DNA of 59,121 nucleotides, from assembly GCA_020073005.1 (NCBI GenBank), contig JAIQFX010000076.1, positions 1 through 59,121 of the forward strand, given 5' to 3'. The DNA comes from Terriglobia bacterium (GTDB lineage: Bacteria; Acidobacteriota; Vicinamibacteria; Vicinamibacterales; CAVVIG01). Both the position numbers and the translations under genes were made by a program. Under the pieces are notes generated by a model. That model ran no database searches. It was not told where the DNA came from and saw nothing but the letters and a program-made list of their open reading frames with translations. Below, piece by piece: positions 14,572-20,599 of this stretch; position 1 is the stretch's first letter; each line of letters starts with the position of its first letter.

Positions 14572-14928
14572 TCAGAACATCCGGCCGCCGAGCGGGACAT
14601 CGCGCTCGGGTGCGAGCAGCACGACCTGTCCCTCCGCGTCGGGCACGCCGAGCGTCAGAACTTCCGACATGAACGGCCCGATCTGACGCGGCGGAAAATT
14701 CACGACGGCGACGACGAGCCGATTGATCAGATCCTCCTTGCGGTAGTACTTCGTCACCTGAGCCGACGACTTCTTCACGCCCAGGGCCTCGCCGAAATCG
14801 ATGCGGAGTTTGTAGGCAGGCTTGCGCGCTTCCGGAAAATCCTGCACGTCGATGATGCGGCCGACGCGCACGTCGACGCGCCCGAACTCAGCGAAGGACA
14901 GCGGCGAGCCGGCGTTGGTCGCGGTCAC
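14572..14928 (-). CDS. csaA: CsaA-like tRNA-binding protein
   Basis: 118 residues, one EMAP/Trbp-type OB-fold as in CsaA and the C-terminal domain of methionyl-tRNA synthetase. Seen motifs: FGRVDVRVGRIIDVQDFPEA, KLRIDFGE, SSAQVTKYY and VVNFPPRQIGPFMSEVL, which carries the NxxPRxIGxxxSE family signature. CsaA proteins bind tRNA and have been reported to act as chaperones; the exact role here is unknown. The start is GTG at 14928. Confidence 0.9.
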   Translation of the reverse strand: MTATNAGSPLSFAEFGRVDVRVGRIIDVQDFPEARKPAYKLRIDFGEALGVKKSSAQVTKYYRKEDLINRLVVAVVNFPPRQIGPFMSEVLTLGVPDAEGQVVLLAPERDVPLGGRMF

Positions 14929-15245: not shown

Positions 15246-16433
15246 TTAAGTACGAACGCCGGCGCGGCCGGGCGATCGCATCGCCGAGAACAGTTCGATG
15301 TGGCCGTCGACCACGCGCTTGCGCTCGGCCTCGTTCGGCTCCATGGACGTCACGCCACGCTCGGACGTGCCGCCGAGGATGATGCCGTCGCGGCGCGGCA
15401 TCATGTGGAGCCCCAGGGCGCCCGGCGGCAGCGGCTCATTGCGCACGCCGCCGTTCGTCTGATAGTTCACTTCCGGCTGCGGCACCATCACCGTCAGCTG
15501 ACCTTTGAGCGGCACGAGCTCCTGATCGCCGAACAACTCACGCGCGCCGAGACCCGTGCAGTTGATCACGACCGGCTCGGAGAGCGACATGAGATCCCGC
15601 GCCGTATCGAACTTGCGCATGATGATGCGGCCGCCGAACATCAACACGTCGCGGACGAGCGCGTCGAGATAGATCGACGGCTCGATGCGGATGCCGGCCC
15701 GGCGGATCGCATACTTCGTCGGGAACGGGTGTTCGCCCGGCTGCAGGATCTCGGATCCGATGATGAGCCCGTTCTGGAGATTCGGGCGCGCCGGCGGAGT
15801 CTGCGGCGGGCGCGGCAGCTCGTCGGTCGGCTGATACGAATCCACCCACGACACGCCGTACGGCGCCTCCCCCGTCAGCAGCTGCAGCTGACGGTAGGCG
15901 ATGCCGGCCGCGCGCGTGAACTGCGCGTCCCACTCGGGCGTGCGGCGATCCTCCATGACGAGACCGGAGTACGGCGTGAATCCCGCGAGCGACATGTTCG
16001 ACGTCACGTTCGGCGGCACGGCGAGCGCGTAGATTGTGACGTCGAAGCCGCGCCGCTGCAGCTGACGCGCCGTCGTGAGGCCGACCGCGCCGCAGCCGAT
16101 CACCGCCGCGCGACGGCCCGGCTGCTGGCTCGCGAACTCCGCCGCCATCAGGCCCGTGCCCCACGAGATCGACATGCCCGCGCCGCCGTGCCCGTAGTTG
16201 TGCACCAGCAGCTTGTCGTCGAGCGTGTCGGCTTTGAGCACGAAGCCCGCGTCGCGATGCGGACGCAGGCCGACCGTCGTGCGGATGATCCGATCCCACG
16301 ACGCATCGACCGGCGTCAGCGTGACCCGGGGCCGGGACGGCGCGAGACCAGGCTTGGGATTTGAGGCGCACGCGCCGAAGCCGACGCCAAGCGCGGCCAT
16401 GCCGCCAGTGGTGAGAAACGAACGTCGATTCAT
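15246..16433 (-). CDS. Tat-exported FAD-dependent oxidase, circularly permuted D-amino-acid-oxidase fold
   Basis: 395 residues from ATG 16433, whose codon overlaps the upstream TGA by one base. The N-terminus has a twin-Arg motif (NRRSFL) and a Cys22 that could be lipidated. Motifs of the D-amino-acid oxidase family are all present but in a rotated order: GLRPHR (residues 55-60, matching GFRPVR of animal DAAO) and VHNYGHGGAGMSISWG (77-92) come first, and the dinucleotide motif AAVIGCGAVGLTTARQL (109 on), normally the N-terminus, follows. VINCTGLGARELFGD and GIILGG come later. In classical DAAO the NYGHGG block is C-terminal. The position of the catalytic Tyr of animal DAAO appears to be His here (GLHMMP). 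It probably oxidises an amine or amino-acid-like substrate outside the cytoplasm. Confidence 0.85.
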   Translation of the reverse strand: MNRRSFLTTGGMAALGVGFGACASNPKPGLAPSRPRVTLTPVDASWDRIIRTTVGLRPHRDAGFVLKADTLDDKLLVHNYGHGGAGMSISWGTGLMAAEFASQQPGRRAAVIGCGAVGLTTARQLQRRGFDVTIYALAVPPNVTSNMSLAGFTPYSGLVMEDRRTPEWDAQFTRAAGIAYRQLQLLTGEAPYGVSWVDSYQPTDELPRPPQTPPARPNLQNGLIIGSEILQPGEHPFPTKYAIRRAGIRIEPSIYLDALVRDVLMFGGRIIMRKFDTARDLMSLSEPVVINCTGLGARELFGDQELVPLKGQLTVMVPQPEVNYQTNGGVRNEPLPPGALGLHMMPRRDGIILGGTSERGVTSMEPNEAERKRVVDGHIELFSAMRSPGRAGVRT

Positions 16434-18361
16434 CACGATTGCCTCTTGACTCCTCGCGCCACGGAGAACGCATCGACCCACGTCGACGCCGCGCCGCCGT
16501 AGCGTCTGACGATCCTGACGTCGACGACGTACGGCCGGCCCGAGGCGGTCGTCTTGAAGCAGCGTTCGAGCGCCGCTGCGAGCTTCGCGGGATCGTCGAC
16601 GCGTTCCGCCTCGACGCCGTAGCCTTTCGCGATCGCCACGTGATCGATCGACGGATGATCGATCGAGCAGCCCGGATACCGGCCCGTCGCCGCCGCGCGC
16701 CCGCCGTAGGCGTGCAGGAACTTGCGATTCGCCTGATAGGCGCCGTTGTTCCAAATGACGACGGCAATCGGCACTTCATAGCGAACGGCGGTCCAGAGCG
16801 CCTGCACGCCGAACTGGAAGCTGCCGTCGCCGACCAGCGCGACGACCTGCCGCCCGGGCTGCGCGATCTTCGCGCCGATCGCGTTCGGCACGCCCCAACC
16901 GAGACAGCCGCCGCCCGTCGTAAAGTGCCGGCGGCCCTGCGCGCTTCGATTGAGCTCGAAGTACGGGTCCGCGGCTTGTTCCTCGCTGATCAGTTCGGTG
17001 ACGACGATCGCGCCGGGATCGATCAGCCGGTTGAGCTCGCTCGAGAGCCGCTCGATCGAAATCGGCGAATCGTTCCAGACCGTCTTCGCCTGATCGTCGA
17101 GCACCTGCCGCCGCTCGCGCGCGTAGCGTTCCGTCGCGCGGCGGCGATCCGCGACAGCCGTCGCCGCCGGCGGACGTCTGCGTAGCTCCTCGAGGACTGC
17201 CTTCGCCGCCAGATCGACGCGCGCCATCATCGGCACGTCCGCCGGGTACGTGCGCCCGAGCTCGCTCGTGTCGATGCTGGTGTGAATCACCTTCACGGGC
17301 CGCGGCACGATCGGCCGCGCGGATGCGCCTGCCGCCGTGAACATCGTCCCGCCGACGCTCCAGAAGACGTCGTAGTCCTTCGGGTACTTGTCGTCTTCCG
17401 CAAAGAAGCCGGAGAAATGCGGATGGAACGACGGGAACGTAATCGGACTGTGGCTCGCGAACAGATCCGCGAAGACCGGCGCGCCCAGCAGCTCCGCGAT
17501 CTCGCGGATGGACGCTGCCCCGCCGTACGGGTTCACTTCGCGTCCGGACACGATGACCGGGAACTGCGCCTGGCGCAGCAGATCGGCCGCGCGGACGACG
17601 GCATCAGGATCGGGATGCAGCGCTTCGTCCGGCTGGGATCGCGAGCGCGGCAGGATCTCTGCGCGCGAGAGCTTCTGCTCCCACAGATCCTTCGAGAACG
17701 TCACGAACGTCGGTCCGCCGGGCGGGACCCGCGCGAACAGAAACGCGCGGCGCAGGACCTCCGGAATCGTCTCGACGTTGAGCACGTCCCACGTCCAGCG
17801 CGTGTAGTCGCGCGGCAGCTGCGCCAGATTCGGCGCCTCGAGGAAGACGTTCTCGCCGCGCGCCAGCGTCGACTGCCCGCCCGCGGTGATGACGACAGGA
17901 ATGCGATCGCGGAACGCGTTCGCGATCTGCCCGAGGGCATACGCGGTGCCCGCGTCCGAGTGCACGTTCACGAACGCCGTCTGCCCCGATGCGCGCGCGT
18001 AGCCGTCGGCCATCGCCATGACGGAGCTCTCGTGCAGACCTTGAACGTATTGCAGCTGGACGCGATCGACGAGCGCGTCGAGGAAGCCGACTTCCTCGGA
18101 GCCGGCGAGGCCGAAGATGTAGGGAACGTTCCACTCGATCAGGAACTCCGCCATCGCCTCGCCGCCCGTGACGTTCTGGAGGACGCGGCTTGGCGCGACG
18201 CCTGCCGACACGGCGGGCTGCGGCGCTTGCGCGTCGAGCGTGCGCGACAGGCCGGCCGCAGCGGTGGTCGCCACCCCGGCCTGCGTGAGCCGCGACACGA
18301 ACGTGCGGCGGCTCATCCGCCGATCGAGGAACCGCCGCGCAGCGTCCTTCATATCTCTCAC
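16433..18361 (-). CDS. Tat-exported thiamine-diphosphate enzyme (acetolactate-synthase-like)
   Basis: 642 residues from GTG 18361. Residues 1-46 are a Tat signal (RRMSRRTFVSRL and a hydrophobic Ala-rich core). Pyr domain: GLAGSEE, VQGLHESSVMAMADGYAR with the cofactor-activating Glu111, and SDAGTAYALG. A central domain follows, then the PP domain with GCLGWGVPNAIGA and GDGSFQFG...VIWNN, the ThDP/Mg motif, near residue 511. The family includes acetolactate synthase and benzoylformate decarboxylase; substrate unknown. Export of a folded ThDP enzyme is unusual. It is translationally coupled to the flavoprotein gene downstream, which is the best hint to its job. Its promoter is TATAAT eight bases before the GTG. 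Confidence 0.9.
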   Translation of the reverse strand: MRDMKDAARRFLDRRMSRRTFVSRLTQAGVATTAAAGLSRTLDAQAPQPAVSAGVAPSRVLQNVTGGEAMAEFLIEWNVPYIFGLAGSEEVGFLDALVDRVQLQYVQGLHESSVMAMADGYARASGQTAFVNVHSDAGTAYALGQIANAFRDRIPVVITAGGQSTLARGENVFLEAPNLAQLPRDYTRWTWDVLNVETIPEVLRRAFLFARVPPGGPTFVTFSKDLWEQKLSRAEILPRSRSQPDEALHPDPDAVVRAADLLRQAQFPVIVSGREVNPYGGAASIREIAELLGAPVFADLFASHSPITFPSFHPHFSGFFAEDDKYPKDYDVFWSVGGTMFTAAGASARPIVPRPVKVIHTSIDTSELGRTYPADVPMMARVDLAAKAVLEELRRRPPAATAVADRRRATERYARERRQVLDDQAKTVWNDSPISIERLSSELNRLIDPGAIVVTELISEEQAADPYFELNRSAQGRRHFTTGGGCLGWGVPNAIGAKIAQPGRQVVALVGDGSFQFGVQALWTAVRYEVPIAVVIWNNGAYQANRKFLHAYGGRAAATGRYPGCSIDHPSIDHVAIAKGYGVEAERVDDPAKLAAALERCFKTTASGRPYVVDVRIVRRYGGAASTWVDAFSVARGVKRQS

Positions 18362-18418: not shown

Positions 18419-20557
18419 TTATCGCGCTTTCATGTTCGCGAGCGCGAACGCCCACTCGTCGGCCAGCTCGGCGATCCGCTTGTCGGTCGGCCGGTAGCCG
18501 TGCGACCCTTGCGTCTCGACGCGGATGACGACCGGCTTGTCGCAGCCCTGCGCCTGCTGCATCGTCGCCGTGAACTTGAACGAGTGGCTCGGGACGACGC
18601 GGTCGTCGTGATCCGCCGTCGTGACGAGCGTCGCGGGGTAGCACGCGCCCGCCTTGATGTTGTGCAGCGGCGAGTACTTGTAGAGGTACGCGAACGCCGT
18701 CGGATCGTCAGCCGATCCGTACTCCGTCGCCCACGCCGAGCCGCCCGTGAACTTGTGATACCGCAGCATGTCCATCACGCCGACCGCCGGGAGCGCGACG
18801 GCGAACAGATCGGGACGCTGCTCTTCGACCGCGCCGACGAGCAGCCCGCCGTTCGATCCGCCCATGATGCCCAGCGTCTGCGGCGACGCGTACTTCTCAC
18901 GCACGAGGTACTCGGCCGCGGCGATGAAGTCGTCGAAGACGTGCTGCTTCTTCTCGTGCATGCCCGCTTCGTGCCACGCCTCGCCGTACTCGCTCCCGCC
19001 GCGCATGTTCGCCGTCGCCCACACGCCGCCGCGCTCGAGCCACGCCGGGATATCGCTCCGGTAGGTCGGCAGCGTCGCGATGTCGAACCCGCCGTACCCG
19101 TACAGCATCGCCGGGTTCATGCCGTCCTTCTTCAGGTCCTTCTTGCGCGTGATGAACATCGGCACGCGCGTGCCGTCCTTCGAGGTGAAGAAGACGCGCT
19201 CGGTCGTGTAGGGCGCGGGATCGAACGCCAGCTTCCGCGTCTCGAACTGCGTGCTCTTCCCGCTCGTCATGTCGAACGCGAACACCGTGGAGGGAAACAG
19301 CGGCGACGTGAACGCGTAGAACAGCTCGGGACGATCGAAGCGGCCGGACAGGCCCGTCACGCTGCCGAGGCCGGGCAGCGCGATCGTGCCCGCGGCCGTC
19401 CCATCGAGCTGATAGAGCCGCATCACGCTCGCGACGTCTTCGAGCCGGCTGACCACGAGCTTGCCCGCGACGAGCGACGCGAAATCGATCGCGTTCGGGC
19501 CGGCCGGGACGATCGGCGTCCAATTCGCGGCGGCAGGCCGATCGATGGGCGCGGCGACGATCTTCTTCGTCGGCGCGTCGAGATCCGTCTGCAGGTACAG
19601 CGTGCCGTTGACGACGCCGAGCGGCTGGTACGCGGCGGTGTGGCCAGGATAGAGCGCGCGCACCGGCGCGTCCATGTTCGGCGCCATCGGGTTCCCGAGA
19701 TCCTTCACGAACAGCTCGTTCTTGTTGCTCGTGCCCTTGTTCGTGGCGAACCAGACGTAGCGCCCGGTCTCATCGATGTCGACGTCGATGAACAGCGAGG
19801 GATCGTCAATCCGCTCGTAGATCAGCCGATCCGCGGACTGCGCGGTGCCGAGCACGTGATAGAAGATCTTCTTGTCGCTGATCGCCGCTTCGAGCGCCTT
19901 CCCCGGCGGCGGCTCCGGGTAGCGCCCGTAGAAGAAGCCCTTGCCGTCCTCCGTCCATGCGATCGAGCTGAACTTCACCCACTTGATCGCGTCCGGCAGC
20001 TGCTTGCCCGTCGTCAGCTCGCGGACGTAGAACGTCGACCAGTCCGAGCCGCCCTCCGACTGTCCGTAGGCGAAGTGCCGGCCATCGGGCGCCGGATCGA
20101 AGCTCGACAGCGCGATCGAGCCGTCAGGCGAGAGCACGTTCGGATCGATCGCGACCGACTCCGTGCCTTTCAGCGTCTCGCGCGTGAAGACCACCGACTG
20201 CCGCTGCAGACCGGTGTTGCGTGAATAGAACCAGCGGCGTCCGCGGTAGTACGGCACGCTGACGCGCGGATAGCTATACAGCTCGGTAATGCGTTTCTTC
20301 AGCTGGTCGCGCACGGACAGCGCGTCCAGGTACTTGAACGTGATCACATTCTCGGCGTCGATCCACTGCTTGAGCTCTGGAGCGTTGAGATCCTCCATCC
20401 ACCGGTACGGATCGGCGACCTTCGTGCCGGCGTACGTGTCGACGACGTCGCCTTTGCGTGGCTGCGGGTACGTGAGCGAAGACTGCGCCACCAGCGCCGT
20501 GACCGCCGCGACAACCAGCACGACGCGCAGAACCGATCCAAAGCGAGGGCGATCCAT
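18419..20557 (-). CDS. Prolyl oligopeptidase family serine peptidase (S9A)
   Basis: 712 residues from ATG 20557, chosen for its GGAGGAG ribosome-binding site and the signal peptide that follows (VLRVVLVVAAVTALVAQS). The N-terminal block KGDVVDTYAGTKVADPYRWMED and the seven-bladed propeller are typical of prolyl oligopeptidase. The catalytic triad is visible: Ser in GIMGGSNGGLLVGA, Asp in TADHDDRVVPSHS and His in TQGSHGY. The signal peptide predicts a periplasmic enzyme cleaving short Pro-containing peptides. It is followed on the same strand by the Tat ThDP gene 57 bases away. Confidence 0.95.
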   Translation of the reverse strand: MDRPRFGSVLRVVLVVAAVTALVAQSSLTYPQPRKGDVVDTYAGTKVADPYRWMEDLNAPELKQWIDAENVITFKYLDALSVRDQLKKRITELYSYPRVSVPYYRGRRWFYSRNTGLQRQSVVFTRETLKGTESVAIDPNVLSPDGSIALSSFDPAPDGRHFAYGQSEGGSDWSTFYVRELTTGKQLPDAIKWVKFSSIAWTEDGKGFFYGRYPEPPPGKALEAAISDKKIFYHVLGTAQSADRLIYERIDDPSLFIDVDIDETGRYVWFATNKGTSNKNELFVKDLGNPMAPNMDAPVRALYPGHTAAYQPLGVVNGTLYLQTDLDAPTKKIVAAPIDRPAAANWTPIVPAGPNAIDFASLVAGKLVVSRLEDVASVMRLYQLDGTAAGTIALPGLGSVTGLSGRFDRPELFYAFTSPLFPSTVFAFDMTSGKSTQFETRKLAFDPAPYTTERVFFTSKDGTRVPMFITRKKDLKKDGMNPAMLYGYGGFDIATLPTYRSDIPAWLERGGVWATANMRGGSEYGEAWHEAGMHEKKQHVFDDFIAAAEYLVREKYASPQTLGIMGGSNGGLLVGAVEEQRPDLFAVALPAVGVMDMLRYHKFTGGSAWATEYGSADDPTAFAYLYKYSPLHNIKAGACYPATLVTTADHDDRVVPSHSFKFTATMQQAQGCDKPVVIRVETQGSHGYRPTDKRIAELADEWAFALANMKAR

Positions 20558-20599
20558 ATGACTCCTCCGGGCGGGGCACGCTCCGCCCCTACGCACAAG

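Follow-up and report, generated by a model that had tools for sequence, protein, structure and literature searches.

A bacterial relative of D-amino-acid oxidase with a natural circular permutation, and its family

The protein P0001, encoded in the window (the whole stretch of 59,121 nucleotides that was analysed), belongs to the D-amino-acid oxidase (DAAO) superfamily of flavoproteins and is a natural circular permutant. DAAO is among the most studied flavoenzymes, and to our knowledge such oxidases are thought to be rare in bacteria. We consider it rather probable that P0001 is a permuted, membrane-anchored periplasmic oxidase of alpha-amino acids, whose order goes back to one founding event; its activity, substrate and electron acceptor are those that we infer. 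The gene lies on the minus strand, a point that the initial annotation had left out, and runs from an ATG at 16433 to a stop codon that ends at 15246. The features to which we refer are the following.

15246 to 16433, minus strand: gene of the permuted DAAO-like flavoprotein P0001, 395 residues (Pfam DAO, phmmer against the PDB, rotation scan, AlphaFold2).
16368 to 16433, minus strand: putative twin-arginine signal with a lipobox-like Cys22, residues 1-22, MNRRSFLTTGGMAALGVGFGAC (conservation of R3, R4 and C22; RR-plus-lipobox pattern).
16125 to 16304, minus strand: transposed block, residues 44-103, the predicted equivalent of the classical DAAO C-terminus (three strands and a helix).
16254 to 16271, minus strand: GLRPHR, residues 55-60, with Arg57 aligned to pig Arg283.
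16176 to 16202, minus strand: HNYGHGGAG, residues 78-86, the YGHGGxG block of bacterial DAAO (alignment; block as named in PMC9844085).
15264 to 16118, minus strand: FAD-binding and substrate domains, residues 106-390, equivalent to DAAO residues 1 to about 272.
16080 to 16097, minus strand: dinucleotide-binding motif GCGAVG, residues 113-118, N-terminal in classical enzymes.
15405 to 15407, minus strand: His343, at the position of pig Tyr228 (alignment).
16433 to 18361, minus strand: gene of the thiamine-diphosphate (ThDP) enzyme P0002, 642 residues with a Tat-type signal, overlapping the oxidase start.
18419 to 20596, minus strand: prolyl oligopeptidase (S9A) gene, 57 bp upstream of the ThDP gene.

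The start codon of P0001 shares one base with the stop codon of the gene upstream (TGATG), and a stretch AGAGG stands immediately ahead. One promoter-like site was counted, against 0.5 in shuffled sequences, and no terminator-like site, against 2.8. Downstream of the oxidase, a small tRNA-binding-domain protein is encoded on the same strand (window 14572-14928), and the 87-residue frame between the two genes has no Pfam match.

Classical enzymes carry the dinucleotide-binding GxGxxG at the N-terminus, and GxRPxR, with its carboxylate-binding arginine, and YGHGGxG at the C-terminus. All three are present in P0001 in the reversed order, as the initial annotation had noticed: GLRPHR (55-60) and HNYGHGGAG (78-86, the block proper being YGHGGAG at 80-86) precede GCGAVG (113-118). 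The Pfam DAO model (PF01266) matches the protein in two swapped pieces, model positions 2-312 to residues 109-395 (78.7 bits, E 1.1e-21) and 301-352 to residues 47-99 (26.4 bits, E 1.6e-5), while five higher-scoring DAO proteins of the same genome match in one piece, from model position 1 to 350-353. The same pattern was obtained with phmmer against the PDB. In the Rasamsonia structure 7ct4, residues 108-390 align to chain positions 25-313 (i-E 3e-5) and residues 49-102 to positions 320-373 (i-E 4.3e-6), and swapped pieces were also found against human D-aspartate oxidase (DASPO) and against fungal and mammalian D-amino-acid oxidases. According to these matches, P0001 ends where the C-terminal blocks of a classical enzyme begin, which is what had been claimed from the sequence.

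Rotating the chain restores a continuous match. With residues 106-390 placed before 44-105, the Pfam DAO model gave one match covering positions 2-352 of 353 and a score of 113.5 bits, against 102.1 in the two native pieces, and the match to human DASPO (6rkf) rose from 74.7 to 79.8 bits in a single stretch (chain 14-335). The core of the protein (44-390) was also rotated at every position and scored with a profile of 11 classical bacterial oxidases. The best start fell at 104-106, with 164.6 bits over profile positions 3-304, compared with 114.0 for the native order. In 103 of 109 permuted sequences the best start lay no more than 10 residues from the first FAD-domain strand, and in six it lay elsewhere; the gain over the native order had a median of 57 bits and a minimum of 1.6. 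As the best of all rotations can hardly lose, it is the size and the place of the gain that are informative. When the 11 classical oxidases were treated as controls, each being excluded from its own profile, nine scored best unrotated and two within 3 residues, with a gain of at most 0.2 bits. The scan and its controls support the proposal of a permuted DAAO. The finding that had been named as speaking against it, a second copy of the N-terminal block at the C-terminus, is absent from all 161 fetched reading frames that hold both blocks, and no intermediate with this block at both ends was seen among the fetched frames. Swapped segments, single copies and a continuous match after rotation are all found in P0001.

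The structure of P0001 was predicted with AlphaFold2 from 81 sequences (P0001 and 80 of 91 representatives, five plasmid homologues and six others being left out), giving a pLDDT of 90.1 and a pTM of 0.88; a first model, from 19 sequences, had reached 81.2 and 0.81. Classical enzymes top the lists of the structure searches, led by human DASPO and DAAO. Model residues 105-383 superpose on 6rkf_B 2-263 with a Z-score of 22.0 and an rmsd of 2.6 Å over 252 aligned residues, at 20-25% identity to classical DAAO/DASPO in the aligned part, and Foldseek gave the first model an E-value of 2.1e-14 to its best match among human DASPO and DAAO. The Z-score to the glycine oxidase 4ysh_B was 16.9, and in a viral structure library FAD proteins appeared at low TM-score only. 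The DAAO-like fold foreseen by the initial annotation is thus what the model predicts. Sequential aligners leave residues 44-103 unaligned, so that we infer the position of this block in the fold from its sequence and from its order of strands (49-60, 65-71, 74-80) followed by a helix (83-101). The equivalent segments are positions 301-352 of the Pfam DAO model, 320-373 of 7ct4 and 280-336 of 6rkf; together with the secondary structure, they suggest that the block takes the place of the DAAO C-terminus. The DAAO fold and the frame of the active site are retained, as the sequence, the rotation scan and the model all indicate. In the rearrangement that we envisage, the old C-terminal block (GLRPxR and HNYGHGGxG) would have moved to the front and been joined by a short linker to the FAD-binding Rossmann domain, and the new chain ends would lie in the loop ahead of the GLRP strand. 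Such a rotation would need only that the old ends be joined by a few residues and that the loop before GLRP be opened.

We then asked which residues of the active site are kept. In the alignment with pig DAAO, Arg57 corresponds to Arg283, which we take to be the arginine that binds the substrate carboxylate, His78 to His307, Gly84 to Gly313 and His343 to Tyr228, a known active-site position. Arg57, Pro58, Arg60, His78, Gly81, Gly84 and Trp91 are invariant in 109 of 109 permuted sequences, Arg347 has one exception, and the YGHGGxG block as a whole is nearly invariant. The carboxylate-binding arginine is likewise present in 11 of 11 classical sequences. A stretch HPF (235-237) marks the permuted sequences, in which its three positions are conserved in 95, 100 and 108 of 109, compared with 0, 6 and 0 of the 11 classical ones. 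The change from tyrosine to histidine reported by the initial annotation holds for P0001, where Tyr at pig position 228 is replaced by His343. It does not hold as a trait of the family: position 343 is Tyr in 52 of the 109 permuted sequences, His in 38, Ser in 11, Gly in 4 and another residue in 4, and Tyr in 10 of 11 classical ones. Histidine is therefore mainly a feature of the clade of the window gene and no mark of the permutation. Its presence at the Tyr228 position suggests that substrate recognition may differ from that of known DAAO. In a 2022 survey of bacterial DAAO (PMC9844085), the arginine is described as conserved among these enzymes and the tyrosine as not conserved.

P0001 begins with a twin-arginine motif, a hydrophobic stretch and a lipobox cysteine, and R3, R4 and C22 are nearly invariant across the close alignment. 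With such a signal the protein should leave the cytoplasm through the Tat system, folded with its FAD, and be anchored by a lipid at the membrane, facing the periplasm, as far as this pattern indicates. The Tat-plus-lipobox pattern occurs in 87 of 110 distinct members, compared with 2.3 on average and at most 7 when the prefixes were shuffled 200 times; at least one of the 87 is false, since in L174 the pattern lies upstream of the annotated start. Most of the permuted branch is thus apparently exported from the cytoplasm. A clade made of rhizobia and Nonomuraea has no Tat-lipobox signal at annotated or likely starts, and so the periplasmic location stated in the initial annotation is supported by the signal pattern for P0001 and for many relatives, and does not extend to all members.

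The reaction that we propose is the following. Arg57 would hold the alpha-carboxylate of an alpha-amino acid, probably the D-isomer, and the alpha-hydrogen would pass to FAD as a hydride. Hydrolysis of the imino acid would then give a 2-oxo acid and ammonia, and oxygen or the respiratory chain may reoxidise the flavin. The 2-oxo acid could in this strain be decarboxylated by the overlapping gene product P0002, presumably exported and similar to benzoylformate decarboxylase, and the presence of a prolyl oligopeptidase gene nearby suggests peptide-derived amino acids as the source. A D-amino acid appears the likeliest substrate because GxRPxR and YGHGGxG mark bacterial D-amino-acid oxidases. Some glycine oxidases also carry these blocks, according to PMC9844085, and the change at the Tyr228 position calls for caution on this point.

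Alternatively, the permuted DAAO fold may serve a changed chemistry, P0001 being an exported dehydrogenase, or an oxidase of alpha-carboxylates other than amino acids, that passes its electrons to a c-type cytochrome or a cupredoxin and not to oxygen. We regard this as rather unlikely. In 53 of 109 permuted sequences, His, Ser or Gly stands at the Tyr228 position. In Kozakia baliensis (L175, 4914-6574) only 5 bp separate the permuted oxidase gene from a cytochrome c gene downstream. A few other members have a CxxCH-type frame in the first 1 kb downstream (6 raw matches among 110 genes, the one at L058 not being cytochrome-like), and a cupredoxin is encoded near a Rhizobium homologue. Such cytochrome c genes or CxxCH frames, seen downstream in a few members, make a dehydrogenase possible. 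However, cytochrome neighbours are a small minority, the carboxylate-binding arginine never varies and the YGHGGxG block hardly does, and the tyrosine is not conserved even in bacterial DAAO, as stated in PMC9844085.

The oxidation of alpha-amino acids in the periplasm, which we favour, can also be considered in the light of the gene neighbourhood. A prolyl oligopeptidase related to that of the window stands beside permuted-oxidase orthologues in seven other genomes, i.e. in 8 of the 45 distinct close orthologues (identity at least 53%) when the window is included. It is directly upstream of the oxidase in three further genomes (76-79% identity) and upstream in a congener (88%), where a class-V aminotransferase gene sits between peptidase and oxidase; it is downstream and convergent in three more (54-57%). 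The aminotransferase of the congener (L120, 2057-3460, minus strand) has a Tat-like signal. By identity, the peptidase accompanies 5 of the 10 orthologues at 69% or more and 3 of the 35 below. No such gene was found beside 37 of the 45, some of which have short flanks; among the orthologues with at least 2.5 kb on both sides it is present in 5 of 31 and missing in 26, and three with 70-71% identity and about 6 kb on each side (L121, L123 and L126) have no adjoining peptidase. Taken together, these counts make the peptidase a recurrent and not a constant neighbour of the oxidase. A related peptidase also adjoins a broken copy of the oxidase in G012 (L036). A Pfam scan of the immediate same-strand neighbours covered 35 of 41 upstream and 35 of 47 downstream genes. 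S9 peptidases account for 4 of the 35 upstream neighbours, two of them being the same gene in two records, and besides S9 peptidases and HslV/HslU no Pfam family occurred in more than two of the scanned neighbours. The HslV/HslU genes, which recur in sphingomonads, were read as a matter of location only.

The ThDP enzyme follows a different pattern. Among solved proteins the nearest to P0002 is benzoylformate decarboxylase. Twelve stretches of 9-16 kb around P0002 homologues (11 in relatives and one in the same genome) contained neither the oxidase nor a related peptidase at E 1e-5, and on this ground we dropped the idea that the ThDP gene is a partner conserved in the exported clade; beside an oxidase of that clade, it was seen in this genome only. 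P0002 homologues in other relatives align from about residue 4, which suggests that an exported ThDP family may exist. In the signal-less clade, each of the four plasmid loci that were read has the gene of a different ThDP enzyme immediately downstream of the permuted oxidase, which is broken in one of them. This ThDP enzyme shares 24-26% identity with P0002 (two compared), and its position supports a 2-oxo acid as the product in that clade. Loci L172, L173, L174 and L177 are of this kind, on plasmids of nodule bacteria and, for the pair of oxidase and ThDP enzyme, also in Nonomuraea. In L173 (3363-7690) and L174 (3476-7702), a berberine-bridge-like oxidase, the signal-less permuted oxidase and the ThDP enzyme stand in a row, which looks like a small biosynthetic or catabolic cassette.

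Concerning the spread of the permuted form, a scan of genome contigs returned at least 558 relatives, of which the best 80, from separate public assemblies, were fetched; all 80 are permuted. Frames with both blocks number 161, of which 148 (110 distinct) are permuted and 13 (11 distinct, L147-L152 and L158-L162) classical, a split that says nothing on the frequency of the classical form since the loci were mostly fetched with permuted queries. In 40 related genomes, the source genome included, 21 gave a match: the permuted homologue is complete or almost complete in 15 and a fragment in one, and five weak matches concern the dinucleotide motif alone. An even draw of 119 genomes from the phylum of the window found permuted copies in nine and classical ones in five others. 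Six of 114 genomes from the class of a Sphingopyxis (itself included) match, each with one piece in the permuted order. In a draw of 99 genomes from the phylum of an Aureivirga, the permuted form was seen in this organism only; ten other genomes match, and the five of them that were read are all classical. Plasmid records add permuted oxidases in Rhizobium, Bradyrhizobium, Kozakia, Niveispirillum and the actinobacterium Nonomuraea, and a cultured Sphingomonas (NZ_CP115960) has a homologue as well (L097). The permuted branch covers Acidobacteriota, Gemmatimonadota, Pseudomonadota, Bacteroidota and Actinomycetota. One contig titled Acidimicrobiia (L047) groups with the phylum of the window in the genome search, and its title may be wrong.

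Broken homologues were met in a few places. G019 (L033) and G012 (L036) each have a second copy whose parts do not share one frame, and a Mesorhizobium copy (L177, 4001-5064), annotated as two genes, carries a frameshift inside the FAD motif. This location led us to reject the split gene as a fission intermediate. One could imagine from these cases that P0001 itself is a decaying or regulatory copy that has lost its enzyme function. This is very unlikely, given that the window gene is intact, as are 148 frames with both blocks, and that the active-site residues are invariant across phyla.

Trees were computed on de-permuted alignments. In the first, with 50 permuted and 10 classical rows, the two groups are separated by one branch with a support of 100/100; in the second, with 31 permuted and 10 classical rows and the plasmid clades added, again by one branch, with 100/99. 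Frames with incomplete ends had been dropped, leaving 104 of 105 distinct permuted sequences in one alignment and 109 of 110 for the second tree, the rotation scan and the residue counts. The trees are unrooted, and the classical sample is a small one of 10 rows, two of them on long branches. Within these bounds they support one permutation event as the founding of a large bacterial branch. Export and neighbours are not the same in the exported clades and in the signal-less one, made of rhizobia and Nonomuraea, as several independent permutations at the same place might predict, but such a history is very improbable, all permuted rows lying on one side of the separating branch in both trees, with 200 of 200 bootstrap trees each. 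Finally, a rotated order due to chance motifs, to the fusion of two genes or to a truncated tandem of classical oxidases is refuted by the profile, rotation and many-genome tests and can be given practically no weight, as the best 80 of at least 558 loci share the order without a second N-terminal block, rotation restores one continuous match, and the gap between the N-terminal block and the C-terminal part, set by profile boundaries, is of 2-18 residues, most commonly 3.

P0001 has in common with the classical enzymes (6rkf, 7ct4 and pig 1an9/1kif) the FAD-binding and substrate domains, the GxGxxG motif, the two signature blocks and the carboxylate-binding arginine, and differs from them by the rotation at the GLRP strand, the Tat signal and the His at the Tyr228 position. 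Compared with the bacterial DAAO of PMC9844085, it shares both blocks and the Arg-Pro pair, whereas the survey requires an N-terminal GxGxxG and that of P0001 starts at residue 113. We have therefore placed P0001 in a permuted sister branch and not among classical DAAO. The glycine oxidase ThiO (TIGR02352; 4ysh, 1ryi) shares the DAO superfamily fold, in relation to which P0001 is again rotated. No NCBIfam family scored above its cut-off, the best being ThiO with 36.4 bits against a required 250.8 and a best stretch of 27 residues. A profile search of the PDB gave no solved permuted homologue among 35 matched sequences, the top 17 being DAAO/DASPO chains, each matched in two stretches, and the remaining 18 aligning at the dinucleotide motif. 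Annotated plasmid homologues are labelled FAD-dependent oxidoreductase, and no description of a permuted D-amino-acid oxidase was found in searches that covered openly available papers. With no NCBIfam family and no such description, we call P0001 a new variety of DAAO-type enzyme; within the same scope, this is in line with the undescribed subfamily suspected at first. The permuted branch, large and present in several bacterial phyla, is apparently unnamed. A circular permutation also separates the proline dehydrogenase domain of PutA from MTHFR, two flavoenzyme families, according to PMC3779223; that case concerns a beta/alpha barrel, unlike the DAAO fold of P0001.

One might go further and speculate that the single ancient permutation founded a separate family, largely periplasmic, with its own substrate range and gene partners and a route from D-amino acids to 2-oxo acids, a tentative view in which our confidence is less than even. 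Its partners would then be the prolyl oligopeptidase, for some of the exported clade, and the ThDP decarboxylase-like enzyme, for the signal-less clade; the route would run in the periplasm and yield 2-oxo acids from the D-amino acids of peptides or cell walls. PMC9844085 counts just over ten bacterial DAAO genes identified, and permuted members may escape searches that demand an N-terminal GxGxxG, as that survey does. If active, these proteins would be exported bacterial D-amino-acid oxidases and a source of new biocatalysts, and nature would have tried out in them how well a flavoenzyme of two domains copes with new chain ends.

The genome that provided the window encodes a second permuted protein (G000:C20:32638-33897; L007, L130), for which the Pfam DAO match is likewise swapped. 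Its gene is followed by that of a 238-residue protein with a Tat-like start and without a Pfam match. This paralogue has a glycine-rich insert, and HNYGYAG stands in it in place of HNYGHGG.
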